From the NCBI GenBank assembly GCA_021799275.1, contig JAJZAT010000004.1, positions 62,001 through 126,000 on the forward strand: a stretch of 64,000 nucleotides of DNA. Reading direction: 5' to 3'. Numbering within the stretch: the stretch's first letter is position 1; each line of letters opens with the position of its first letter. This stretch comes from Bacillota bacterium (GTDB lineage: Bacteria > Bacillota > Sulfobacillia > JAJZYS01 > JAJYTV01). The position numbers and the translations under genes were made by a program. Below the pieces are notes generated by a model. That model saw nothing but the letters and a program-made list of their open reading frames with translations, searched no databases and was not told the DNA's origin. Below, one piece after another: positions 8,359 through 50,144 of this stretch.

Positions 8359-11304
8359 GTGCGACCCAAACTGTTCATAGCCCTTGCCCTCGGGAGCTCC
8401 CTTGCCCTGTCGACCTTCGGCAGCGCCGCGGCCGATGGGCACCACGGCGGGTTCAAAGACCTCGGCCGGGCGCAGTGGGCGGCGCCAGCCATCAACATGC
8501 TCGCGCAGCAGGGCTTGCTGAATGGTGTCACGCCAACCCAGTTTGCGCCACAGCAGCCGCTCACGATCGGCCAGTTGGCAGCGATCCTCCTGCGCTTCCA
8601 GGGACACGCACGAGCCGGTGAGTCCTTCGGCGCCGAGGTCGAGCAGGCCTCGCGGGCCGGCATGATGGCGGGCCTCGGCGGCCCGGTCGGCGGTGGCAAG
8701 GCGGCCACGCGCGCGCAGGCCATGACCATGATCGTCAACGCGCTGGGGTTGCAGGGTCAGACGCAGCTGGGAAACCTCATGCATTTCCGCGACCACGGCA
8801 AGGTGCCGGGCTGGGCTCGTCGCCCGCTCGCCTTGGCCGTCGGCCTGGGGCTGCTTGAGGGGTCCCAGGGCAACCTGATGCCGGACGACATGCTGACGCG
8901 GGCCGAGCTCGCCGTGATCCTGCAGCGCATCGAGCTGCTGCTCGGCCTCGGCCAGGCGTCGAGCGTCAGCGGCACGTTCGTCTCTACGGGGACCGCGACG
9001 GTGAACGGCCAGACGGTGCAGACGATCACGATTGCGCCTTACGCAACGTCGTCAAGTCAGCAAACCTACAACATCGCCCAGGGCGCGGAGATCGACTATG
9101 GCAGCCAGAGCGGCGCCCTGTCGAGCTTCAAGACGGGCGATCAGGTCATGCTGACCCTGGACCAGATGGGTGACGCCAGCGTCATCGTGGATCTGCAGGG
9201 CGCGAGCTCCCCGCAGGCGCACGCGGGCAGCGTCTCCGGGATCGTGACCGCGATCGGCAACGGCCAGGTCACGATCCAGGCCAGCCAGAACCAGGGTGAC
9301 GACCAAGGCAGCGACGACCACGGCAACCTGCCGTCCGGCACGTACGCGCTGAGTCCCGCCGTCAAGGTGGTCATCCCTGGGGAAGGAGCCCACGGCTCGG
9401 TCTCCCAGGTGGAGGTCGGCGCATTCGTCCGCCTGGTCGTCGGACCGAGCGGGCTCGTCGACGTGATCATCGTCCACCCGTCGCAGGGTGAGGGCGGCGG
9501 CTCGACGTCCACCGCACCCACCGGCGTCACGGCGAGTGAGGCGGCCACTGGCGTCGCGCTCAACTGGACCGGCGTGAACGGCGCGACATCGTACCAGGTA
9601 CTTGAGGCGAACGGCGGCTCCTACGCGCCCGTCTCAGCCGCGAACGGCGGCACACCGGCGGGCACGAGCACGACCGTGACCGGCCTCATGGCGGGCACGA
9701 GCTACACCTTCGAGGTGGAGGCCGTGACGCCGAGCGGCACCTCCCAGCCGTCGGCAGCGTCCAGCTCCGTCGAGTGGGGCGCGAGGTCCTCGAGCACCGC
9801 GACGGTCTCGGTGACGACGTCGGGCGGCAGCACCTACGCGACCATCGCCGTCGGCTACGACAAGCCGCTCGCCCCGGCGAGCCTCGACACGACAGCGACC
9901 GACTACACCGTGACCGACGCCACCACAGGCGCGGCCCTGCCGGTGCAGTCGGTGAGCGCGAACGGCAGCACGGTCAGCATCGTGACGCAGCCTTCGACCA
10001 TCACCACACTCGGCAGCGACAACATCACCGTCACCACGGCGAAGTCGGTCGTGAATGACCTCGCCGGCGCTCCGACGACGCCCATCGACGCGATGAGCCA
10101 GCAGACCCTGACCTCACCGACGAGCGTCTCGGCCCAGGAAACCGCGACGGGCATCGCGCTCAGTTGGACCGGCGTGAGCGGCGCGACGTCCTACCAGGTC
10201 CTCGCGTCGAACGGCGGCGCGTACGCGCCGGTGGCCGCCGCTGACGGCGGCGCCCCGACCGGCATCACGACGACCGTCACCGGCCTCAGCGCCGGAACGA
10301 GCTACACCTTCGAAGTGGAAGCCGTCTCCCAGGGCGCCATCTCGGCGCCGTCCAGCGCGACGACCGCCGTCGAGTGGGGCGCCAAGGCGGGAACCAGCGC
10401 CTCGGTCGCCGTGACCATGTCCGGCGGAACCGCGTACGCGACCATCGGCATCCCGTATGACAAGACCCTGAACCCCTCGAGCGTCGACACGGCGGCGGGC
10501 GACTACACCGTCACCGACGCGACGACCGGCCAGAGCCTGGGAGTCCAGTCCGCGACGGCCAATAACAGCACCCTCACCATCGTCACACAGCCCGCCAGCA
10601 TCGCCTCCCTCGCGACCGACACCATCGCGGTGAAGACCTCGAAGTCGGTCGTGAACGACGCGGCCGGCGCACCGACGACGCCGATCCAGGCAAGCGGTGC
10701 CGCCAGTCTCGCCGTGCCGGGCAACCTGGCGGCGCAAGAGACAGCCTCGGGCATCGCGCTCACGTTCTCTCCGGTCGCCGGAGCGACATCGTACCAGGTG
10801 CTCGAGTCGAGCGGCGGCGCCTACGCCCCGGTGGCGGCGGCGAACGGCGGCACCCCGAACGGCACCGGCACGACCGTGACGGGCCTCACCGCGGGCACCA
10901 GCTACACATTCGAGGTCGAGGCGGTCGGTGCGCCGGGCACGTCGATGCCCTCGACGCCGTCCGTCGCCGTCGAGTGGGGCGCCGCAGCGAGCCCGAACCT
11001 GAGCACGGCGGCCACGGTGACGTCCGGCCAGGAAACCCTGACCATCACCGTGACCTACGACAAGACGCTGAGCGCCACGGGCCTTGACACGACGCCCAGC
11101 GATTACACCGTCACCGACACCACGACGAACCAGTCCCTGGGCGTCGCGAGCGTCGCCGTGAACGGCCAGACGCTGGTCATCACCACCGTGGCGGGCACTC
11201 CGCTCACAACCACGGACGCGCTCAAGGTCACGACCGCGAAGTCCGTTGTCAACGACAGCGCGGGTGCGCCGACCACCGCGATCGACGCGACCGGCACCGT
11301 CTAG
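8359..11304 (+). CDS. Secreted SLH-domain protein with three fibronectin-type/Ig-like tandem modules
   Basis: 981 residues. A signal peptide (KLFIALALGSSLALSTFGSAAA) is followed by about three S-layer-homology segments (residues ~30-200; FKDLGRAQWAAPAINMLAQQG, TRAELAVILQRIELL) that normally bind secondary cell-wall polymer. Next is a beta-rich region with SGTFVSTGTATVNGQTVQTI and SGIVTAIGNGQVTIQAS that looks like DUF5666-type repeats (~205-380). Then come three tandem ~199-residue modules, each a fibronectin-type III domain (GATSYQVLE...GTSYTFEVEAV) plus an Ig-like domain ending ITVTTAKSVVNDLAGAPTTPI. The protein is probably a cell-surface or S-layer component. GTG 8359 has GGAGG seven nt upstream; the frame is open 22 codons further, without a signal peptide start there. 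It has almost no cysteine. Ligand unknown. Confidence 0.88.
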   Translation: MRPKLFIALALGSSLALSTFGSAAADGHHGGFKDLGRAQWAAPAINMLAQQGLLNGVTPTQFAPQQPLTIGQLAAILLRFQGHARAGESFGAEVEQASRAGMMAGLGGPVGGGKAATRAQAMTMIVNALGLQGQTQLGNLMHFRDHGKVPGWARRPLALAVGLGLLEGSQGNLMPDDMLTRAELAVILQRIELLLGLGQASSVSGTFVSTGTATVNGQTVQTITIAPYATSSSQQTYNIAQGAEIDYGSQSGALSSFKTGDQVMLTLDQMGDASVIVDLQGASSPQAHAGSVSGIVTAIGNGQVTIQASQNQGDDQGSDDHGNLPSGTYALSPAVKVVIPGEGAHGSVSQVEVGAFVRLVVGPSGLVDVIIVHPSQGEGGGSTSTAPTGVTASEAATGVALNWTGVNGATSYQVLEANGGSYAPVSAANGGTPAGTSTTVTGLMAGTSYTFEVEAVTPSGTSQPSAASSSVEWGARSSSTATVSVTTSGGSTYATIAVGYDKPLAPASLDTTATDYTVTDATTGAALPVQSVSANGSTVSIVTQPSTITTLGSDNITVTTAKSVVNDLAGAPTTPIDAMSQQTLTSPTSVSAQETATGIALSWTGVSGATSYQVLASNGGAYAPVAAADGGAPTGITTTVTGLSAGTSYTFEVEAVSQGAISAPSSATTAVEWGAKAGTSASVAVTMSGGTAYATIGIPYDKTLNPSSVDTAAGDYTVTDATTGQSLGVQSATANNSTLTIVTQPASIASLATDTIAVKTSKSVVNDAAGAPTTPIQASGAASLAVPGNLAAQETASGIALTFSPVAGATSYQVLESSGGAYAPVAAANGGTPNGTGTTVTGLTAGTSYTFEVEAVGAPGTSMPSTPSVAVEWGAAASPNLSTAATVTSGQETLTITVTYDKTLSATGLDTTPSDYTVTDTTTNQSLGVASVAVNGQTLVITTVAGTPLTTTDALKVTTAKSVVNDSAGAPTTAIDATGTV
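9514..11301 (+). repeat. Three tandem ~597-bp coding repeats
   Basis: Units at about 9514-10110, 10111-10707 and 10708-11301 encode the three FN3 + Ig-like modules of the SLH protein. GCGACATCGTACCAGGT and GTCGAGTGGGGCGC recur with only synonymous or conservative changes. Units are diverged at DNA level, so they are old duplications rather than a recent expansion. They could still recombine and vary in number. Confidence 0.85.
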
Positions 11305-11330
11305 TCCGGACGCGGCAGCTTCGCAGCATG

Positions 11331-11362
11331 AGGGCCCGGCGCGCGTAACGCGTCGGGCCCTT
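11331..11362 (+). terminator. Rho-independent-type terminator between SLH gene and efp
   Basis: AGGGCCCG pairs with CGGGCCCTT, with inner GCGCG/CGCGT pairing around TAA, followed by TTCCCTTTG on the plus strand. It lies between the convergent SLH gene and efp, and may serve both. Confidence 0.75.
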
Positions 11363-11378
11363 CCCTTTGCTGCGCTGC

Positions 11379-11936
11379 TCAGGCCCGGGAGAGATACTCG
11401 CCGGACCGCGTATCGATGATCAGCTTGTCCCCGTTCTCGATGAAGAGCGGTACCCGCACGACGTAGCCCGTCTCCAGCTTCGCCGGCTTCGTGCCACCGG
11501 TCGCGGTGTCGCCACGCAGCCCCGGATCCGTCTCCACGACCTCCAGTTCGACCGAGTTCGGCAGGTCGACGCCGATGATCGTACCCTGGAACTGCAATAG
11601 CGCGATGGTCATGTTCTCCTTGAGGAAGTGGAGCGCGTCCCCGAGCTCCGTCGAGGTCAGGCTCACCTGCTCGAACGTCTCGGTGTCCATGAAACTGTAC
11701 TCGTCGCCATTCGCGTAGAGGTACTGCATCTCGTGGCGGTCGACATGCGCCCTCGGCATCTTCTCGCCCGCGTTGAAGGTGCGCTCCACGACGGCGCCGG
11801 TCTTGACGTTGCGGAGCTTCGTGCGCACGAAGGCCGAACCCTTGCCCGGCTTGACGTGCTGGAACTCGATCACCGAAAAAACCTGGCCGTCGATCTCGAT
11901 CGTTACCCCGTTGCGGAAATCGTTCGAGGAAATCAC
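11379..11936 (-). CDS. efp: Elongation factor P
   Basis: A 185-residue, three-domain OB/KOW protein that binds between the ribosomal P and E sites and rescues stalling at polyproline. The N-terminal KOW domain has [15 protein letters not shown] with Lys32 at the tip, the residue modified in other species. The central OB segment [19 protein letters not shown] and the C-terminal signature [31 protein letters not shown] are complete. ATG start. It is third in a minus-strand group aroQ-pepQ-efp; in Bacillus the spoIIIA operon follows directly, whereas here a plus-strand block intervenes. No modification enzyme is seen nearby. Confidence 0.97.
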
Positions 11937-23287: not shown

Positions 23288-24739
23288 TCAGGCCCCTGAG
23301 AGCTTCTCGATGCCGACGTCGATCCGGCGCAGCGCCTCGTCGCGACCGAAGAGCTCCGAAAGCTCGCTCGCGCCGCCGGGGGTGAATTCCTTGCCCGAGA
23401 GCGCCACACGCACGGGATACATGACCTGGCCGTTCTTCACGCCAAGCTCCGCGGCCAAGGCCTCGAGCGCCGCGTGGACCTCTTCGTGGCCGAACGACGT
23501 CAGGGACCCGAGCGTGCCGCGGGCGGCCTCCAGGCTGCGCAAGGCGATGGCGGTGTCGGTCTTCATCTTCTTGTGCGTGTAGAGGGCGGGGTCGTAGTCG
23601 GGCAGAGCGGCCACGAAGTCGATCTGCTCGGGGATCTCGGACAGCACGGCCGTGCGCGTGTGCATCAGGCGGCTGAGGGCCAGGAGGTCCACTGGGCACT
23701 CCCGCACGTTCTCCGGGTACCAGCGCAGGGCCAGGCGGTGGAACTCCTCGAAGGGGAGCCTGCGGATGTACTCGCCGTTCATCCAGCGCAGCTTGACCGG
23801 GTCGAAGATCGACGGAGACTTCGAGAGTCCAGCGAAGCTGAAGTTCCCGACGAGTTCCTCGAGCGTGAAGAACTCCTCGTCGTTCCCCGGCGCCCAGCCG
23901 AGCAATGCCACGTAGTTCAGGATCGCCTCCGGCAGGTAGCCTTTGCTGTAGTAGTCCTCGAACGAGGCGTCGCCGTGGCGCTTGCTGAGCTTCTCCGTGG
24001 CGGACTTGTTGATCACAGGCAGGTGGACGTGCACGGGGACGTCCCAGCCGAAGGCTTCGTAGATGAGGACGTACTTGGGCGTCGACGACAGGTACTCCGC
24101 CCCGCGCATGACATGCGTGATGCGCATCAGGTGGTCGTCCACGACATTGGCGAAGTTGTAGGTGGGGAAGCCGTCGGACTTCAGCAGCACGCTGTCGTCG
24201 AGTTCCGCGTTGTCGACCGCGATGTGGCCGAACACGACGTCGTCGTAGCTCGTCGTGCCGGTGAGTGGCGTGCGCTGGCGCACCACGGACGGCATGCCGG
24301 AGGCCAGGCGCTGTGCGACGTCGTCCGGCGTGAGGGCACGGCAGCGCTCGTCCTTGAACGGACGCTTGTGCAGGCGCGCGGCCGCGCGCTGCGCTTCCGT
24401 CTCCTCCGGCGTGCAGAAGCAGCGGTACGCCCCGCCGCGCTCGATCAGCTCCTCGGCGTAGCGGTGGTAGATCTCGAGACGCTCGCTCTGCACGTAGGGA
24501 CCGTACGGGCCGCCGACATCCGGGCCCTCGTCATGCCGCAGGCCGACCCGCCCCAAGGTGTCGTAGATCGCCTGCACCGCCCCTTCCTGCAGGCGCCCCT
24601 GGTCGGTGTCCTCGATCCGCAGGATGAACTGCCCGCCGTCCTTCTTCGCCGTCAAGTAGGCGTATAGGCCTGTGCGCAGGTTGCCAAGATGCATATACCC
24701 CGTCGGGCTGGGCGCGTACCGCGTTCGCACTGCCGCCAT
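23288..24739 (-). CDS. gltX: Glutamyl-tRNA synthetase
   Basis: 483 residues, class I synthetase. HIGH region YAPSPTGYMHLGNLRTGLYAYL (HLGN variant), FILRIEDTDQGR, GAEYLSSTPKYVLIYEAFGW, and KMSKS-type loop EKLSKRHGD. ATG at 24737-24739 has GGAGG nearby, and the MAAVRTRYAPSPTG start is typical; an 18-codon upstream extension is non-homologous. Whether it is discriminating or also charges tRNA-Gln cannot be read here. A TGGTACAAT element lies 32 nt upstream. Confidence 0.97.
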   Translation of the reverse strand: MAAVRTRYAPSPTGYMHLGNLRTGLYAYLTAKKDGGQFILRIEDTDQGRLQEGAVQAIYDTLGRVGLRHDEGPDVGGPYGPYVQSERLEIYHRYAEELIERGGAYRCFCTPEETEAQRAAARLHKRPFKDERCRALTPDDVAQRLASGMPSVVRQRTPLTGTTSYDDVVFGHIAVDNAELDDSVLLKSDGFPTYNFANVVDDHLMRITHVMRGAEYLSSTPKYVLIYEAFGWDVPVHVHLPVINKSATEKLSKRHGDASFEDYYSKGYLPEAILNYVALLGWAPGNDEEFFTLEELVGNFSFAGLSKSPSIFDPVKLRWMNGEYIRRLPFEEFHRLALRWYPENVRECPVDLLALSRLMHTRTAVLSEIPEQIDFVAALPDYDPALYTHKKMKTDTAIALRSLEAARGTLGSLTSFGHEEVHAALEALAAELGVKNGQVMYPVRVALSGKEFTPGGASELSELFGRDEALRRIDVGIEKLSGA

Positions 24740-24770
24740 CGTCACCCTCCACCGCGTACAAACTTTCTCC

Positions 24771-24779
24771 ATTGTACCA
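24771..24779 (-). promoter_or_regulatory. Extended -10 promoter candidate for gltX
   Basis: Minus-strand TGGTACAAT, giving a leader of about 25 nt. No matching -35 hexamer. Same pattern as at aroQ and yqeG. Confidence 0.5.
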
Positions 24780-24867
24780 AGTCCTCGTGGCACCGCGCTG
24801 CCCGTTTCCCCGGTGCCAACCCGGCGCGCCGAGGGCCGCCCTCCGGGGGGCGGCCCTCGACATCGCG

Positions 24868-25854
24868 CTACTGGTAGATGATCACGAGCGGAGGTGGATC
24901 GAGTCCTAGCACCATCGAGGGCGTCGCGAGCGGATGGTCCTGTGTGTAAAAGAGCTTGATGCCGCCCGCGACGACGAAGTGACTCTGCAGACGCTTCGCG
25001 TAGAACCCGTTGAGCAGTCCATGGACGCCGAACGGCTGCTGGATCGGGATGACGTAGGGGATCTCCTCCTGGTGGATGAAGCGTTCGTACTCCGACGACT
25101 TGAGTGGCCAGCCGCCGAAGCCGTCGAGGTCCCGCACCAGGACAACGTTGGGCTGCTCCTCAATCTGCTGCCAGTCCGGCACCATGCTTTCGATGAACTG
25201 GTGCAGGATCAGGATCTTCTGCGGCAGGTGGTAGCGCACCGTCAGGGACTGCAGGTACTGAAGGGCCCAGTTGATCGGCGGCGTCGGCATCGAACCGAAC
25301 TCGATGCCGGGAATGTCGCCGGGCAGCATAGCGAACTCGGGATCGAGCGCCAGTTCGACGTCCGGCTGGCGCAGGAACGGCTCGAGGTATTTCACCTCGG
25401 TCTGCACGGTGGCGTGACCGATCTGCACATCGAGAATCAGCAGCAGGTGGTGGCTGCGCGCGAGGTCGAGCTCGCTCTGGATCAGGGAGTATGGCATCTG
25501 AGCGCTGTAATAGCCGTTCGGGCCCGGGCTGCGTTGGGCGACGACAGCCACGAGCTCGAGCGCTCCAATGACCGGACGCCCCGGCGCCACCTGCCGGAAG
25601 GCCTGCTCCTGGGCCGCGAGGCGCTGCAGCATCTCCTGCGGCGTCCCCTGCCCCAGGACACCCATCGTCGCCGACAGCGGGTTGCCGTAGTAGGAGATGA
25701 TCCTGTAGGTCGGCAGGAGCGTCGGGCCGAACCAGTCAAGCCCAGGCGCCGCCCGCGCCCTGGCCTGGCTCGGGCCGAGCAGGAGGCCGGCCATGGCAAA
25801 GCCCGCCAAAGCCAGCAGCGCAAGGAACGGGCCAGATCGGCGTCGGGGCTTCAT
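24868..25854 (-). CDS. Secreted protein of unknown function (possible TIM-barrel-like fold)
   Basis: 328 residues with an N-terminal basic stretch and hydrophobic signal (PFLALLALAGFAMAGLLLG, cleavage near ARARA). Alternating strands and helices: VIGALELVAVVA, HLLLILDVQIGHATV, VELALDPEFAMLPGD, KILILHQFIESMVPD, NVVLVRDLDGFGG, SHFVVAGGIKLFY. This looks like a (beta/alpha)8 barrel with acidic residues at strand ends, as in glycosidase-like proteins, but no family signature was recognised. No cysteine, so not a lipoprotein. ATG 25854 with only a weak purine-rich ribosome site; a TGTTATGCT element lies upstream. Stands alone between gltX and amtB. Confidence 0.75.
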   Translation of the reverse strand: MKPRRRSGPFLALLALAGFAMAGLLLGPSQARARAAPGLDWFGPTLLPTYRIISYYGNPLSATMGVLGQGTPQEMLQRLAAQEQAFRQVAPGRPVIGALELVAVVAQRSPGPNGYYSAQMPYSLIQSELDLARSHHLLLILDVQIGHATVQTEVKYLEPFLRQPDVELALDPEFAMLPGDIPGIEFGSMPTPPINWALQYLQSLTVRYHLPQKILILHQFIESMVPDWQQIEEQPNVVLVRDLDGFGGWPLKSSEYERFIHQEEIPYVIPIQQPFGVHGLLNGFYAKRLQSHFVVAGGIKLFYTQDHPLATPSMVLGLDPPPLVIIYQ

Positions 25855-25937
25855 GCCACGCTTTTCTCTTTGCACGAGGTCAGCATAACATGGCAACCAC
25901 TGTCGCAACGGTGGCATTTCCTGCGTTAATTGGGCAA

Positions 25938-25979: not shown

Positions 25980-27197
25980 CTAGTCGGCGTAGGCCGCCTC
26001 GCCGTGCAGGGCCTCGTCTAGGCCCCCAATCTCCACGTCGCGCGAGACGCGCAGCGTACCTGCGAGGTCCAGTACCTTGAGAATGCCAAAGGTCACCGCG
26101 AAGGCGTACGCGCTCGTCACGACGACTGCGATCAGTTGCATGAGGAGCTGGTGCAGATCGCCCTGGACGACGCCGCGCACCCCATTCACCGAAGCCACGG
26201 CAAAGACTCCGAGCAGCAAGGAGCCCAGGACGCCGCCGACCCCGTGGCAACCCCAAACGTCAAGCGCGTCGTCCACGTTCTTCCACGTCATGCGCAGCCG
26301 CATGGCTCCAAACGGCACGAGACCGGCGAGCAGCCCTATGGCCGCTGCAGCCCAGGGCTGCACGTATCCAGCGGCGGGCGTGATGGTCGCGAGACCGGCC
26401 ACCGCACCTATGAGAGCTCCCGAGACGGTCGGTTTGCGATCCACCAGCCACTGCACTGCGAGCCACGCGACCATCGCGACCGATGCTGCGATGTCGGTGT
26501 TGACGAACGCCGTGGCGGCAATGCCATTGGCCGCCAAGGCACTGCCGGCGTTGAAACCGAACCATCCGAACCAGAGGAGGCCCGTGCCCAGCGCCACGAA
26601 CGGCAGGTTGTGCGGCGTACCCGACGTGCCCTTGGGCAGGAAGCGGCTACCTACCACAAATACCGACGCAAGCGCGCCGAAACCTGCGCTCGCATGCACG
26701 ACCATGCCGCCCGCGAAGTCCACTGCACCCATCTGCGCCAGGAAGCCGCCCCCCCAGAGCCAGTGAGCGATCGGAATGTAGACGAGCACGCTCCAGAGCA
26801 CCAGGAACCAGAGATAGCCGGAAAACTTGACGCGATCGGCGAAGGCGCCGGTGACGAGCGCCGGGGTGATGATGGCAAACATCAACTGGAACGCGAAGAA
26901 AACCAGGAACGGGATGGTGGCGCCGTGCGCCGGGTTCGCTGCCATGCCGACACCCTGCAGGCCGAAGTAGCTGAGGTTGCCGATGATGCCGTGCCAGTCC
27001 GGGCCGAACGCCAGACTGAAACCGCCCAGAACCCAGATGGTGGCCACAACCCCCATAGCGATGAAGATCTGCATCATGATCGTCAGGACGTTCTGCCGCC
27101 GCACAAGGCCGCCGTAGAAGAAGGCGAGACCAGGTGTCATCAGCAGAACCAGGGCCGCGCTGATCAGGACGAATGCGGTGTCGCCCGTATTGATCAC
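25980..27197 (-). CDS. amtB: Ammonium transporter
   Basis: 405 residues with about eleven hydrophobic helices: an Amt/Mep/Rh channel for NH3/NH4+. Visible are the twin pore histidines (in MVVHASAGFGALAS and WGCHGVGGVLGSLL), the FFAFQLMFAIITPALVTGAFADR segment carrying the phenylalanine gate, and the cytoplasmic C-terminal tail (LRVSRDVEIGGLDEALHGEAAY) that couples subunits and contacts PII. GTG start at 27197. It is 131 bp after the response regulator and probably in the same or a regulated neighbouring unit. Unusually, no glnK/PII gene is adjacent. Confidence 0.95.
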   Translation of the reverse strand: MINTGDTAFVLISAALVLLMTPGLAFFYGGLVRRQNVLTIMMQIFIAMGVVATIWVLGGFSLAFGPDWHGIIGNLSYFGLQGVGMAANPAHGATIPFLVFFAFQLMFAIITPALVTGAFADRVKFSGYLWFLVLWSVLVYIPIAHWLWGGGFLAQMGAVDFAGGMVVHASAGFGALASVFVVGSRFLPKGTSGTPHNLPFVALGTGLLWFGWFGFNAGSALAANGIAATAFVNTDIAASVAMVAWLAVQWLVDRKPTVSGALIGAVAGLATITPAAGYVQPWAAAAIGLLAGLVPFGAMRLRMTWKNVDDALDVWGCHGVGGVLGSLLLGVFAVASVNGVRGVVQGDLHQLLMQLIAVVVTSAYAFAVTFGILKVLDLAGTLRVSRDVEIGGLDEALHGEAAYAD

Positions 27198-27328
27198 GCG
27201 TCATCATCCTCTCGCGGAATGTAGGCGCAAGACGCCCACTCCACCCTAGGACAGCTCGACGGCGGCGGACATACAGGCAACTTCGTATTGTCGACCGGAA
27301 TCCAAGGTATCTTGCCTCTCCTGGATCC

Positions 27329-27970
27329 CTACGGCTCGATGATGCGGTTGCGCACGGCATAGAGGACGAGATCGCGCATGCCCCTTAGTCCCAGCTTACG
27401 CATGATGTTGGCGCGATGCGTCTCGACCGTCTTGAGGCTCAGGCTAAGGAGGTCCGCGATCTCGCGGTTGTTCTGCCCACTGGCAAGTAGTTCCACGATT
27501 TCGCGCTCCCTCGGCGATAGGATGTCGCGCTCACGGCCCTGGCCGTAGTTCTCGACGAAGCCGGCGACCACATGCCCCGCAATGTCGGGTGAGACGTAGG
27601 TGCCACCCGACCGCACCACCCGGATTGCCCGTAGGAGTTCCTCCAGGGCGTTGTCCTTAAGCACGTAGCCTTGTACCCTCTCGCGGAACGCCCTCGCGAC
27701 GAACTCCTCTCCCTTGTGCATCGTCAGTATGATGACACGGACGTCTGGCGCTACCTGTCTCATGTGAGCAGCCACATCGAGCCCGCTGAGCTGAGGCAGG
27801 GAAATGTCGAGAATGGCGACATCTGGCTTCAGGCGTTGGACCGCCTCCAGGGCTTCGCTTCCGGTGCCTGCCTCACCGACCACGTCAATGTCGCCTTCTT
27901 GCTGGAGCAGGATGAACAGAGACTGTCGCAGGATCTTGTGGTCGTCAGCGATCAGGACCCTGGTCTTCAT
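27329..27970 (-). CDS. NarL/LuxR-family response regulator
   Basis: 213 residues. Receiver domain 1-~120: acidic pair at DDHKILR, phospho-acceptor Asp55 in VAILDISLPQ, Thr in VIILTMHKGEE, Lys in GYVLKDNALEEL. C-terminal LuxR-type helix-turn-helix ~145-210: LSPREREIVELLASGQNNREIADLLSLSLKTVETHRANIMRKLG. It overlaps the end of the Amt-histidine kinase by 26 nt and has its own GGAGG six nt before ATG, so it is the cognate partner by position. The natural target is the amtB gene immediately downstream, but no operator repeat was identified. Confidence 0.95.
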   Translation of the reverse strand: MKTRVLIADDHKILRQSLFILLQQEGDIDVVGEAGTGSEALEAVQRLKPDVAILDISLPQLSGLDVAAHMRQVAPDVRVIILTMHKGEEFVARAFRERVQGYVLKDNALEELLRAIRVVRSGGTYVSPDIAGHVVAGFVENYGQGRERDILSPREREIVELLASGQNNREIADLLSLSLKTVETHRANIMRKLGLRGMRDLVLYAVRNRIIEP

Positions 27971-29897
27971 ACGGCACCTCCATCGTCAAGGTCGTTCCTT
28001 GACCCACCCCTGTGTCGATGCGCAGTGTCCCGGCCAGCATCTGGATGCGCTCCTGCATGGATGTGAGACCGAGCCCGCCGTGCACACGCTGACTCTCAAA
28101 CCCTTTTCCGTCGTCGGCCACCCGCAGCACACAGAGGTCCGGCCGCACACGGGCGAAGGCAACGTCCACGCGCGTCGCCCGGGCATGCTTGAGAACGTTC
28201 GTCAGGGACTCCTGCAGCACGCGGTACAGGTTGAGCGCTGCCGCCTCTTCCCAGCGCGGCATGTCTCCCTGCATCTGCAGGCTGCAACGGATCCCGCTCG
28301 TCTTCTCCACACCGTCGAGCAGGGCCTTCGCGGCCGCCTCGAGCCCTTGGCTGCGCAAAACATCCGGACGCAAGTTCAAAAGAACGCCCCGCATCTCCTC
28401 GATCGCCTCGGCTGCGAGCCGCACAGTCCCGTCGACCTGCGTCGCGAAGTCGCCATTGCCAGCCTCGGCCCGCGCGCGGCCGGCGAGGATGCCCAGTCGC
28501 AGCTTCAGCGCGGCCAAGGACTGCCCGACACCGTCGTGCAGGTCGCGCGCCAGCCGTACGCGCTCATGCTCCTCGGTTTCCACGAGCAGGCGTGCCTGCC
28601 GCTGCAGCTGCTGGTTCTGCGCCTGGATCCGCCCGGAGAGGTCGCTCGCCAGATGCTCATAGTGGCTGCTACGCAGGTACTCCTGCCAAGAATAGATGTC
28701 GCCGAACTCCACGATGTTGAGGCCTTTCTCCTCCTCCGCCTCGGTCACGCGCAGGCCCAGCCACCTCTTGATCAGGTAGAACATCAGAAAGCCGAGGCCG
28801 AAGGACCATACGAAGTTGACCGACACGCCAAGCAGCTGGACGAGAAACTGCACAAGCCGCGACCGCCCGCCCAGAAACTGCGGTGCGGCGAACAAGGCGA
28901 GCAGCAGGGTACCCACGGCGCCACCGAAGCCGTGGATGGGGACCGCCCCAACCGCATCGTCCAGGCGCCTGCGCTCCAGCCACACACTGGCCAACACGAC
29001 AACTGCCCCCGCGACGAGCCCCACCAGCACCGCCTCAGGCGGCTGTACATAGGCGGAACTTGCGGTGATCGCAACCAGCCCACCGAGCGCGCCGGAAAAG
29101 ATCGCTTCCATGAAGCTGTGGTCGCGGAAGAACACGCCGGTCGTGAGGAGCGCCCCCACCACGCCGCCGGCCGCCGCGAAGTTGGTATTGAGCAGGATGA
29201 GTCCGACGCGACTGTCAAACTGGAGCAGGCTGCCGCCGTTGAAGCCGAACCAGCTGAACCACAAGATGAACGTGCCCAGGGTAGCGAATGGGACATTGGA
29301 ACGGCCTAGCTGCCGCGCCCGCCCGTCGGCGTCCCACCGGTCCTTGCGCGGACCGATGATCATGAGGCCAGCGAGCGAGACCCAACCCGCGGTGGCGTGC
29401 ACGACGGTGGCCCCCGCAAAATCCATGTATCCGAGGCTCCTCAGCCAGGCCGGCTGGCGCAGGAACGTGCCTCCCCAGGCCCAGTGACCGAAGAGGGGAT
29501 AGATGACGCCGGCCATGAACACGGCTGCGATCAGCAGAGGCACGAGACGTGTCCGCTCGGACATGCTGCCGGAGACGATGGTGACCGACGTCGCGGCGAA
29601 CATGAGCTCGAAGAAGGCGAATACGTAGCCAAACGAGTTCCCTGCCGTCGTCAGATGCGTCAGGAAGAAGAAGCCGCCACCGATCAGGCCGAAGTGCGTC
29701 GGGCCGAACATGAACGCAAACCCCAGAAAGCCGAATACCAGCGTCGCGATGATGAAGGTCAGCATGTTCTCGATCGCGACGCTGACGACGTTTTTGGCCT
29801 GGACGAACCCCACTTCGTAGCACACGAAGCCGGCCTGCATGAAGAAGACGAAACAGGCGCTGACGATCACCCAGAGATGGTTGACACTGACGCCCAT
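27945..29897 (-). CDS. Amt ammonium-transporter/sensor histidine kinase fusion
   Basis: 650 residues. Residues ~1-415 are a complete Amt channel: FFELMFAATSVTIVSGSMSER (gate region) and both twin-histidine segments (VVHATAGWVSLAG; PIHGFGGAVGTLL). The typical tail GLRVTEAEEEKGLNIVEFGD follows. A helical linker (~430-470) leads to a HisKA_3 dimerisation domain with LARDLHDGVGQ, phospho-His at 454, then HATPase_c with N-box LQESLTNVLKHA, DDGKGF and GGLGLTSMQERI. Family precedent: the ammonium sensor kinase Ks-Amt5 of an anammox bacterium. Here the kinase is NarL/DegS type and is encoded with a NarL-type regulator, a separate AmtB and a c-di-GMP enzyme. ATG at 29897. Confidence 0.95.
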   Translation of the reverse strand: MGVSVNHLWVIVSACFVFFMQAGFVCYEVGFVQAKNVVSVAIENMLTFIIATLVFGFLGFAFMFGPTHFGLIGGGFFFLTHLTTAGNSFGYVFAFFELMFAATSVTIVSGSMSERTRLVPLLIAAVFMAGVIYPLFGHWAWGGTFLRQPAWLRSLGYMDFAGATVVHATAGWVSLAGLMIIGPRKDRWDADGRARQLGRSNVPFATLGTFILWFSWFGFNGGSLLQFDSRVGLILLNTNFAAAGGVVGALLTTGVFFRDHSFMEAIFSGALGGLVAITASSAYVQPPEAVLVGLVAGAVVVLASVWLERRRLDDAVGAVPIHGFGGAVGTLLLALFAAPQFLGGRSRLVQFLVQLLGVSVNFVWSFGLGFLMFYLIKRWLGLRVTEAEEEKGLNIVEFGDIYSWQEYLRSSHYEHLASDLSGRIQAQNQQLQRQARLLVETEEHERVRLARDLHDGVGQSLAALKLRLGILAGRARAEAGNGDFATQVDGTVRLAAEAIEEMRGVLLNLRPDVLRSQGLEAAAKALLDGVEKTSGIRCSLQMQGDMPRWEEAAALNLYRVLQESLTNVLKHARATRVDVAFARVRPDLCVLRVADDGKGFESQRVHGGLGLTSMQERIQMLAGTLRIDTGVGQGTTLTMEVPYEDQGPDR

Positions 29898-29944: not shown

Positions 29945-32900
29945 TCAGGACCTCAGCCGCGCGAGGGCCATGATGAGATCGTCCTTCTGCCGCCAGAGCC
30001 TGTCCACTGCCCTAGCCGCCAGGTCCAGGTCGCCTGCCGCCTGCCCTCGCACCGTCTCTTCGGCGACTTCGTGCGCCCGACGGTGCTCGCGCTCGACGTC
30101 CGCCAGCGCAGGATGCTCCGCGAAATGGCTCCGGCCATAGGTGTCGAGCCAGTAGCCGAGCCCGCAGCACGTACCTCGCAGGCCTTTGTGCCGTCCGTAC
30201 GGCTTCAGCGCGCCCTCGACCGCGGTCGCGGTGAAGAGCGCGGCCCAGCGCAGGTGCCCGAGCTCCGCCGCCAGCACCTCGAAGGTTTCGGTCGCCGCCT
30301 GCAGCTCGCTGCCGGCCACCAGCGGCGCGCGCTCAGCGAACTCGCTGCAGAAGGCGTCGATCGCGTCGCGAGGCATCGGCCGCGCGATCGCGTAGCCCTG
30401 CACCAGGTGGCAGCCGAGACGCAGCAGCGCGCGCGCCTGCGCCGCCGTCTCGACTCCTTCCGCCAGCACCTCGCGCTCCATGGCATGACCCATGATCAGG
30501 ACGCCGTGGATGATGGCAGGGCTCTCCGGCGTGCGGAGCATGGCCTCGATGAAGCGCTGGTCGATCTTGATCATGTCGCACGGCAGTTCCTGCAGCAACG
30601 TGATCGACGAAGACCCGGTGCCGAAGTCGTCGAGCAGGGCCCGGACGCCGAGGCGGCGGCAGGACTCGATCTGCTGGCGCGCCAGTTCAACATCGTGCAC
30701 GACCGCAGACTCCGTGATCTCGACCGCCACCTGCCGCGGCTGGACGGTCGGGTGAAGCGCGAGCGCCTCCTCGAGCTCCTGGGCGAACGTGGGCGCCAGG
30801 AACTGTCGGGCGGACGCGTTGAACGCCACCTGCAGGCCGGGTTGCGCCCTGCCAAAGGCCTCCGCCTGCGCCACCGCCTCCCGCAGGACGAACCGCCCGA
30901 TCTCGAGCTCGAGCGCGGTGCCTTCGACGGCCGGCAGGAACTCGCCGGGCATGCGCAGGCCGCGCGTCGGGTCGCGCCAGCGCACGAGAGCCTCGACGCC
31001 CACGATCACCTGCCGGACGAGGTCCACCTGCGGCTGGTAGTGGAGTTCTAGCTCCCCGCGCTCAAGGGCCTGCTGGATGCCTTCCCTGAGGTCGCCGCGC
31101 TTCGCCACCAGATCCTCCATGTCGGTCGAGAAGAAGCGGAACGGGACGTCCGTGGCCCTCTTCGCGGCATACATCGCGATGTCGGCGCGCCTCAGAAGCG
31201 TCTCGGCGTCCTCGCCATCCTCGGGATAGACGGCGACGCCGATGCTGCCGCGCAGGGTGAAGGTCCGGCCGGCGACCTGCGTCGGCTCTTCCACCGCCGC
31301 GATCACGCGGCCCAGGACATGCTGGAGCTCCTCCCGCTCCGCGAGCGTGTCGACGAGCAGGATGAACTCGTCCCCACCCGAGCGCGCTATGGTGTCCTCG
31401 GTCCGCACCACCCGCTGAAGGCGATGGGCCATGCGCTGCAGCAGCCTGTCGCCGAAGCCGTGGCCGAGGGTGTCGTTGACCTGCTTGAACTCGTCGAGGT
31501 CGACCATGGCGAGCGCGAAGCGATGGCCATGCCGTCTCGCGTGGTGCAGGGCGTGCGCGATCCGCTCGTCCAGAAGGCGCCTGTTCGGCAGCCCTGTCAA
31601 GGCGTCGTGGTTCGCGAGATGGGCGATGCGCTCGCTCTGCCGCCGCCGCTCCGTCACGTCGCGATGCGACGACAGGATGTAGGCGACGCGGCCCTGGCCG
31701 TCGCGCAACGGCACTGCGGACCAGTCCATGAGGAACTCGGAGCCGTCCTTGCGATACTGGTAGACCTCTCCCGCCCACGAACGGCCGCCCAGCACGACGT
31801 CGTGCATGGCGGCGATGGCCTCGCGATCGGTCCGTGGGCCCCAGAGCATCTCCGAAGATCGGCCGACGATCTCGTCCACCCGGTATCCCGTCATCTCCTC
31901 GAACGCGGGGTTCGCGTACACGAACCGCACGCCGCCGTCGGGCAGCACCTTGGCCACCACGAGGCATTCCTTGGCCCGCTCGACGATCTCATGGTGCAGA
32001 GAGAGCTGCTCCTCCGCCTCGATGCGCCGTCGCCTGTCCTCGATCACCTCGAGCCCGAAGCCCAGGTCCTGGGCCATCTCCGTCAGGACCGCCCGCACGG
32101 ACGGATCCTCGAACTCCCCGACGCCTTCGGCGTAGAGGACGAGCACGGCTTTTAGGGTCCCGCCGGAGACGGGTACCGCCGCCACCGAATGCACGCCGAC
32201 CCGCATGGCCTGCTCGCGCCAAGCCTCGAGGCCCGGCGCTGCCCAGAGGTCCGCCACCGTGCACAGCCTGCCCTCGCGCAAGGCGCGCGCGGCGGGACCG
32301 GTGCCACGAGGATCGCCCGGGTCGAGACGCACGTCCAGGTCCCAAAGCGCCTTGCGATCCGAGCCGGACCACGCGATCGGACGCACGCCGCCCGCCTCGT
32401 CCCTTTCGCCCACCCAGGCGAAGCGAAAGTCGCCATACTCGATCGCGATGTCGCACACCTGATGCATCAGGCTGGATGGATCCTCCACGCGCATGACTGC
32501 CTGCCCGAGCTGCGCCAGCGAACGCCAGAGGCGCGCCTGCCGCCGAGCGGCCAGGCCCTCGTGGCGCAGCCTCTCCTGCTCCTCCCGACGGGCGCTGGCG
32601 AGTCCCACCTGCTGCGCGACGAGGCGCGCGAACTCCTCGTCGTCTGGGTCGGGTTCCTTGCGGGACGCGTACCTGACGCAGACCACGCCGGCCCGCTCCC
32701 CCGACCTGAAGCCGACGCGCAGCAAGGTGCCGTGCAACTGCCTTGGCCCGGACGCGTCGGGTTGCAGCCAGAGAGCCTCACCAGGCGGCGGCTGATCGTG
32801 CCGGCCGCTCTCCCACGCGCACAGGTCGAAATCGCCTTGCGCCACGACGCTGTGCAGCATACCCTCATCCGCTTCGAGCAGGATAGCCAGGCCGTCGGCC

Positions 32901-33010
32901 TCGAGCAGCCGCCGTCCGATCCTGGCCACGTTCGCGAAGACCTTGTCGTAGTGGAGACCTGGGTGCATCGCCTGCAGTTCCTGCCGCAGACGGTTCAGTC
33001 GCGTATCCAT
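29945..33010 (-). CDS. GAF-GAF-PAS-GGDEF-EAL protein with C-terminal CZB zinc-binding domain
   Basis: About 1021 residues (TTG two codons upstream is an alternative to ATG at 33010; ribosome site weak). Domains: GAF ~25-140, GAF ~165-320, PAS ~335-455, GGDEF ~465-625, EAL ~635-885, CZB ~915-990. The cyclase is intact (SGGDEF at 545-549) with the inhibitory I-site RTED (536-539). The phosphodiesterase is intact too: EAL 673-675, FNASARQF, EITES, LLDDFGTG, IKID, EGVET. The tail has HLRW (His919), CGLGYW (Cys949), EREH and RRAH (His976, His980), the 3-His/1-Cys pattern of CZB domains that bind zinc. It makes or degrades c-di-GMP under sensory control. 47 bp upstream of the Amt kinase, same strand. 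Confidence 0.93.
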   Translation of the reverse strand: MDTRLNRLRQELQAMHPGLHYDKVFANVARIGRRLLEADGLAILLEADEGMLHSVVAQGDFDLCAWESGRHDQPPPGEALWLQPDASGPRQLHGTLLRVGFRSGERAGVVCVRYASRKEPDPDDEEFARLVAQQVGLASARREEQERLRHEGLAARRQARLWRSLAQLGQAVMRVEDPSSLMHQVCDIAIEYGDFRFAWVGERDEAGGVRPIAWSGSDRKALWDLDVRLDPGDPRGTGPAARALREGRLCTVADLWAAPGLEAWREQAMRVGVHSVAAVPVSGGTLKAVLVLYAEGVGEFEDPSVRAVLTEMAQDLGFGLEVIEDRRRRIEAEEQLSLHHEIVERAKECLVVAKVLPDGGVRFVYANPAFEEMTGYRVDEIVGRSSEMLWGPRTDREAIAAMHDVVLGGRSWAGEVYQYRKDGSEFLMDWSAVPLRDGQGRVAYILSSHRDVTERRRQSERIAHLANHDALTGLPNRRLLDERIAHALHHARRHGHRFALAMVDLDEFKQVNDTLGHGFGDRLLQRMAHRLQRVVRTEDTIARSGGDEFILLVDTLAEREELQHVLGRVIAAVEEPTQVAGRTFTLRGSIGVAVYPEDGEDAETLLRRADIAMYAAKRATDVPFRFFSTDMEDLVAKRGDLREGIQQALERGELELHYQPQVDLVRQVIVGVEALVRWRDPTRGLRMPGEFLPAVEGTALELEIGRFVLREAVAQAEAFGRAQPGLQVAFNASARQFLAPTFAQELEEALALHPTVQPRQVAVEITESAVVHDVELARQQIESCRRLGVRALLDDFGTGSSSITLLQELPCDMIKIDQRFIEAMLRTPESPAIIHGVLIMGHAMEREVLAEGVETAAQARALLRLGCHLVQGYAIARPMPRDAIDAFCSEFAERAPLVAGSELQAATETFEVLAAELGHLRWAALFTATAVEGALKPYGRHKGLRGTCCGLGYWLDTYGRSHFAEHPALADVEREHRRAHEVAEETVRGQAAGDLDLAARAVDRLWRQKDDLIMALARLRS

Positions 33011-33087
33011 GGACAAATGCGTTTGCCGCCCCTACCTGACAGGATTCGACTGCTTAATTTGGCGTCAGCCCGGAAACTTCCTGTGCT

Positions 33088-50027: not shown

Positions 50028-50042
50028 TCAAACCTTCTCCCT

Positions 50043-50122
50043 TCGGCAACCCGGCGATCATAGCCTTTTCGGCCTTAGACCCGTGGCTTTGCGTCCGACC
50101 CTTTCGAGCCGTTTGCCATTTC
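50043..50122 (-). promoter_or_regulatory. c-di-GMP-I (GEMM-I) riboswitch upstream of flp
   Basis: Minus-strand sequence matches the GEMM-I core in order: AATGGCAAACGG (P2 5' side), GAAA tetraloop (CTCGAAAGGGT), the invariant GGACGCAAAGCC joining strand, ACGGGTCTAAGGCC, a GAAA-capped P3 (GGCCGAAAAGGCTATGATCGCC) and the 3' GGGTTGCC that closes the tetraloop-receptor helix. This is the class I c-di-GMP aptamer. It lies 75 nt before flp with a hairpin/T-run between, so it should control transcription of the whole Tad operon. Whether ligand turns it on or off cannot be read. Confidence 0.93.
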
Positions 50123-50144
50123 GCGGGGTATTCAGTGTGGATCG

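Follow-up and report, generated by a model that had tools for sequence, protein, structure and literature searches.

How might a bacterium with no recognizable PII protein sense ammonium and control its uptake? The question is raised by a locus in a 64,000-nucleotide stretch of a Bacillota genome (contig JAJZAT010000004.1, positions 62,001 to 126,000; hereafter the window), in which one minus-strand gene joins an ammonium transporter (Amt) domain to a HisKA_3-class histidine kinase and is followed by a NarL-type response regulator gene and a separate amt gene (Table 1). Together the three genes probably make up a self-contained circuit for ammonium control, consisting of receptor kinase, regulator, operator, and amt. 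A preliminary description of the locus overlooked two things: that a second, unfused amt lies downstream, and that a conserved promoter element sits in the gap between the regulator and amt.

In the proposed circuit the Amt domain would act as a membrane receptor, which ammonium would enter through the usual selectivity filter and in which it would be blocked on the inside by an aromatic plug. Occupancy would cause a conformational change that reaches the HisKA_3 kinase along an unbroken coiled helix and alters phosphorylation of H454; phosphate would pass from H454 to D55 of the overlapping regulator. Once phosphorylated, the regulator would bind a dyad that closely precedes a weak -10 element, and would activate transcription of the neighbouring amt. 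For an uptake gene, activation when ammonium is scarce is the expected direction.

The regulator and amt are separated by 131 bp in the window (27198-27328), and the equivalent gaps of relatives contain the dyad AATACRG-N6-CYGTATT. With leave-one-lineage-out matrices for 10 lineages, and up to 14 kb ranked, an intergenic site was top-ranked in at least one member of 9/10 lineages. In eight lineages this was the chosen site, at 70-83 bp from the start of amt, and in the ninth (L046) it was a site 157 bp upstream; the remaining lineage (L051) failed, at rank 7. A TANNNT motif lies exactly 21 bp after the dyad at all 18 loci in the 10 lineages, with any other offset found at three loci or fewer, and shuffled sequences attained this spacing in at most 5/10 lineages. 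The composite of a dyad scoring at least 10 and a TANNNT is present in 17/17 gaps, versus 11 occurrences in the remaining 215 kb on the two strands, and no dyad match of score 10 or above lies upstream of the fusion gene. The operator is also nearly unique at the genome level: four places in the 3.14 Mb window genome are within two mismatches of the dyad, two of them at the cassette locus, and in the Desulfosporosinus genomes G066 and G068 the amt promoter is the only zero-mismatch composite among the matches listed. Away from the amt promoter, genome scans for a wider regulon yielded no more matches than the control pattern. A second near-match to the dyad (27172-27191), 98 bp from the first and in the same place in sister genomes, was set aside as an operator; it lies within the first amt codons (N-T-G-D-T-A-F) and is probably a coding coincidence.

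The dyad is likely to be the activator site by which the kinase controls amt: with the -10 element at about -12 to -7, it would span about -53 to -34, a position suited to contact between an activator and RNA polymerase. We think it unlikely that the regulator instead represses amt, or serves as an anti-activator at high ammonium. Judging from the spacing, the dyad borders the -35 region and might from there block RNA polymerase, but repressor sites tolerate varied positions, whereas the 21-bp spacing here is fixed in 10/10 lineages and places the dyad where activators typically bind.

The closest counterpart of the receptor part is Ks-Amt5 of Candidatus Kuenenia stuttgartiensis, cited in the preliminary description as a rare characterized Amt-kinase fusion: the two Amt domains align with 48% identity, and Ks-Amt5 (6EU6) is the best PDB sequence match of the fusion (399 bits). 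Foldseek likewise places 6EU6 first for the fusion model, followed by structures of Sd-Amt1, with DesK-DesR at rank 49-50. The preliminary description called this part a complete Amt channel with both pore histidines, and the canonical pore is indeed intact – W/S filter, phenylalanine gate, and the histidine pair H167 and H322, equivalent to H171/H326 of Ks-Amt5. We part from it on conduction, as the domain probably binds ammonium without conducting it, because each of the three aromatic residues that plug the Ks-Amt5 pore (F27, Y30, F34; PMC5764959) has an identical counterpart, namely F24, Y27, and F31. Loop 5 has 20 residues in both the fusion and Ks-Amt5, and 15 in the separate Amt of the window, which has a canonical Ammonium_transp pore without the plug pattern. 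Across the set, the Y30/F34 plug pair is present in most of the HisKA_3 receptors of Bacillota and HisKA receptors of Planctomycetes, and absent from all other fusions; in some relatives from the rumen the filter is degenerate and loop 5 is short. The retention of every canonical pore residue (phenylalanine gate, filter, and both histidines) would also suit a working transporter that signals as well, a transceptor whose kinase reports flux and not static occupancy. This is rather doubtful, as a separate transporter is always encoded adjacent to the fusion where the flank allows.

Several points weigh against the receptor circuit as proposed, the first being that the ion site of the fusion differs from that of Ks-Amt5. 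The two-ion ammonium site compared consists of Q24, E31, N47, D50, T51, T109, and T112 (PMC5764959); Q21, E28, N44, and T106 of the fusion match Q24, E31, N47, and T109, and T112 is replaced by S109. D50, one of two acidic ligands in Ks-Amt5, is T47 in the fusion, and T51 is F48. All members of the Bacillota HisKA_3 clade have T, S, or A at the D50 position, whereas most of the Planctomycete relatives have E or V. Moreover, Q24, E31, N47, and T109 are found in some separate Amts and so are not enough to identify a sensor; because the separate Amts L008, L093, and L097 carry these four together with D50, even these five residues are no sufficient mark of a receptor. Finally, both the function of the operator and the identity of the regulator that binds it are drawn from position and conservation, and the dyad consensus was first spotted by eye in the same gaps, although neither the leave-one-out ranking nor the -10 spacing depends on how it was spotted. 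The partial conservation of the high-affinity site (T47/F48 for D50/T51), and the acidophile names of several family members, would fit a kinase that senses some other cue through the Amt fold, such as membrane state, pH, or methylammonium, with the Amt domain as a scaffold. We regard this as improbable, since the window protein retains the entry filter and, in all lineages, the gene predicted to be controlled encodes an ammonium transporter.

For transmission from receptor to kinase, the preliminary description proposed structure prediction of the linker; an AlphaFold model of the fusion, of moderate confidence (mean predicted local distance difference test score 73), has one continuous helix (residues 401-477) that begins where the Amt fold ends and continues past H454. 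Seven residues – one heptad – are absent from the linker helix in six relatives (L045, L046, L048, L049, L050, and L065), which fits a signal carried by coiled-coil register. By Pfam the Amt domain is joined directly to the kinase, with no PAS or HAMP domain. All three domains of the 650-residue product exceed the curated Pfam cut-offs, with PF07730 (HisKA_3) matched and PF00512 (HisKA, the class of the Ks-Amt5 kinase) not matched, and the open reading frame and domains are as first described. The predicted phospho-acceptor H454 proved unchanged across an alignment of 19 homologues, and the other boxes of the HisKA_3 class (N567, DDGKGF, GLGL) are kept. In NCBIfam the Amt part scores barely above the cut-off of the amt subfamily; for the kinase the nearest models are MctS, UhpB, and LiaS, whose equivalog cut-offs it misses by a wide margin. 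The pairing with a cognate NarL-type regulator holds also, its gene overlapping that of the kinase by 26 bp and encoding both receiver and DNA-binding domains.

Table 1. Features of the Amt-kinase cassette and its predicted promoter element (window coordinates).
Feature	Position	Strand	Description
Amt-HisKA_3 sensor kinase gene	27945..29897	-	650 residues; open reading frame, Pfam, homologues
Amt receptor domain, residues 8-400	28698..29876	-	PF00909 Ammonium_transp, 341 bits
Linker, residues 401-444	28566..28697	-	Coiled; within predicted helix 401-477
HisKA_3 dimerisation/phospho-acceptor domain, residues 445-514	28356..28565	-	PF07730, 58 bits; H454 codon 28536-28538
HATPase_c catalytic domain, residues 555-644	27966..28235	-	PF02518, 47 bits
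NarL-type response regulator	27329..27970	-	213 residues; Response_reg PF00072, GerE PF00196; phospho-acceptor D55
Predicted regulator operator	27270..27289	-	AATACGA-AGTTGC-CTGTATG; consensus AATACRG-N6-CYGTATT in relatives' gaps
Predicted -10 element	27243..27248	-	TAGGGT, 21 bp 3' of operator
Separate Amt transporter, predicted target	25980..27197	-	405 residues, assimilatory type; Pfam, alignment, gene order

The fusion is not an accident of one assembly. It is uninterrupted in four sister genomes (G001-G004, 85-93% identity) and, at 65-69% identity, in the isolates Acididesulfobacillus acetoxydans (isolate PacBioINE), Desulfosporosinus acididurans M1, and Peptococcaceae bacterium CEB3; an assembly join, named at the outset as a finding that would overturn the gene, or a chance run of two adjacent genes, is excluded for practical purposes by these independent assemblies and cultured isolates. 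The same scan of named genomes that gave these isolates found the fusion in more distant Bacillota metagenome-assembled genomes (MAGs) at 42-55% identity. The fusions form a monophyletic Bacillota family extending beyond the window genome, and the Bacillota origin of the DNA was borne out. The fusion is rare, with 6/398 genomes having it when the phylum is sampled evenly, and within the class of the window it occurs in 5/6 genomes of the genus and in none of the others among 55 relatives from the order and class. The Amt halves of all 20 fusions form one clade (support 100), as do the kinase halves (99/100); the two parts therefore evolved together, and within this set the fusion has a single origin. 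A clade uniting the Bacillota fusions with Planctomycete receptors, including Ks-Amt5, is not rejected by the approximately unbiased test (p-AU 0.54).

The patchy distribution hints at horizontal spread. As a yardstick of transfer gltX was unusable, because the window copy (23288-24793, minus strand) shares 57% identity with one Desulfosporosinus copy but only about 42% with genes from other families of its own order, suggesting that it was itself replaced by transfer.

The order of Amt-kinase, overlapping or abutting regulator, and separate amt is found at every Bacillota HisKA_3 locus with enough flank, and the separate amts of relatives' cassettes are 61-97% identical to that of the window. 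Loci of other Amt fusions, the Ks-Amt5 clade among them, do not have these neighbours within the examined flank, except for weak regulator matches at L085 and L089; the Planctomycete fusion loci examined have no related regulator or AmtB-type gene within the available flank. In the window the minus-strand order is a GGDEF-EAL gene, Amt-kinase, regulator, separate amt, and a gene of unknown function. The first of these (29945-33016), 47 bp upstream of the fusion, encodes a GAF-PAS-GGDEF-EAL protein with a weak C-terminal match to CZB (zinc-binding); a role in the circuit is not supported, as it adjoins the cassette in the window genus only. The last (24868-25905, minus strand) has no Pfam match, and follows amt in the window genus at 80-93% identity. 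In a Peptococcaceae MAG (L065, about 10949-11788) a NifH-like gene, recognized from its N-terminal sequence only, lies downstream of the cassette, a possible link to nitrogen fixation. No Rfam match to an RNA switch was found in the cassettes of ten relatives or near that of the window; the sole gathering-level Rfam match in the window is a c-di-GMP-I riboswitch aptamer (50042-50127, minus strand, 82.5 bits).

The suggestion that sensing could be independent of PII agrees with the gene content. At 97.5% completeness, the window genome encodes just the two Amts of the cassette, and PF00543 (PII) has no match there or in any of 15 genomes of the order, with or without the fusion; the cassette is the only Amt control visible in this organism. 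The cassette did not cause the loss of PII: the whole sampled order is without it regardless of the fusion, and cassette-bearing Desulfosporosinus relatives have both. The causes of its absence therefore predate the cassette. Three genomes (G073, G074, and G078) have PII matches within open frames of 609-630 residues, possibly Amt-PII fusions.

Receptor-type Amts related to the fusion carry varied outputs, including HisKA, GGDEF, MCP, SpoIIE, CheA-like, and hybrid kinases. Amt-MCP fusions (L073, L083, L088, and others) in Halalkalibacter, Metabacillus, and Spirochaetes are candidate ammonium chemoreceptors, with MCP confirmed by Pfam for L073 and L088 and assigned by length and tree position for the rest. 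Amt-GGDEF fusions occur in Clostridia and Gammaproteobacteria, and L095, L106, L085, and L084 join receptor-type Amts to SpoIIE phosphatase, CheA-like (Hpt and HATPase), and hybrid kinase outputs. We lean towards the view that the Bacillota family is a complete PII-independent circuit for ammonium homeostasis in one mobile cassette, within a wide receptor-Amt class with multiple outputs (HisKA_3, HisKA, GGDEF, MCP, CheA-like, and SpoIIE). The family makes direct sensing of external ammonium by Amt proteins testable by reporter assay, and the cassette would offer a natural, portable ammonium biosensor.

In purpose the circuit resembles AmtB-GlnK, in which PII matches ammonium uptake to supply, although the window genome has no PII gene and a two-component pair is predicted to exert control at the level of transcription. 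The kinase and regulator belong to the families of DesK-DesR, LiaS, and NarX/NarQ, but the sensor has an 11-helix ammonium transporter fold where those have few membrane helices. Sd-Amt1 of Shewanella denitrificans differs in its output, which we take to be a diguanylate cyclase. It shares with the fusion an Amt receptor domain (43% identical) followed by a C-terminal signalling part, the solved chains (8QJ3/8QJ4/8QPF) having 644-661 residues.

Ks-Amt5, the precedent for an ammonium transporter turned kinase receptor (PMC5764959), shares with the fusion the plug residues, an extended loop 5, a directly fused kinase without PAS or HAMP, and the lack of a nearby GlnK gene. It differs in having D50/T51 at the ion site where the fusion has T47/F48, and a HisKA in place of a HisKA_3 kinase; the overlapping regulator, and the amt with a conserved operator, are features of the Bacillota loci. 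In the open literature Ks-Amt5 was the only Amt kinase found to be characterized, a weak form of absence as subscription papers lay largely outside. Amt receptor kinases are therefore already known, and what appears new is one with a predicted partner, operator, and target gene. The partner regulator of Ks-Amt5 was described as 'yet to be identified' (PMC5764959), and the cassette family, some of whose members come from cultured bacteria, would supply the parts missing from that system: a regulator, its probable DNA site, and a probable target gene.
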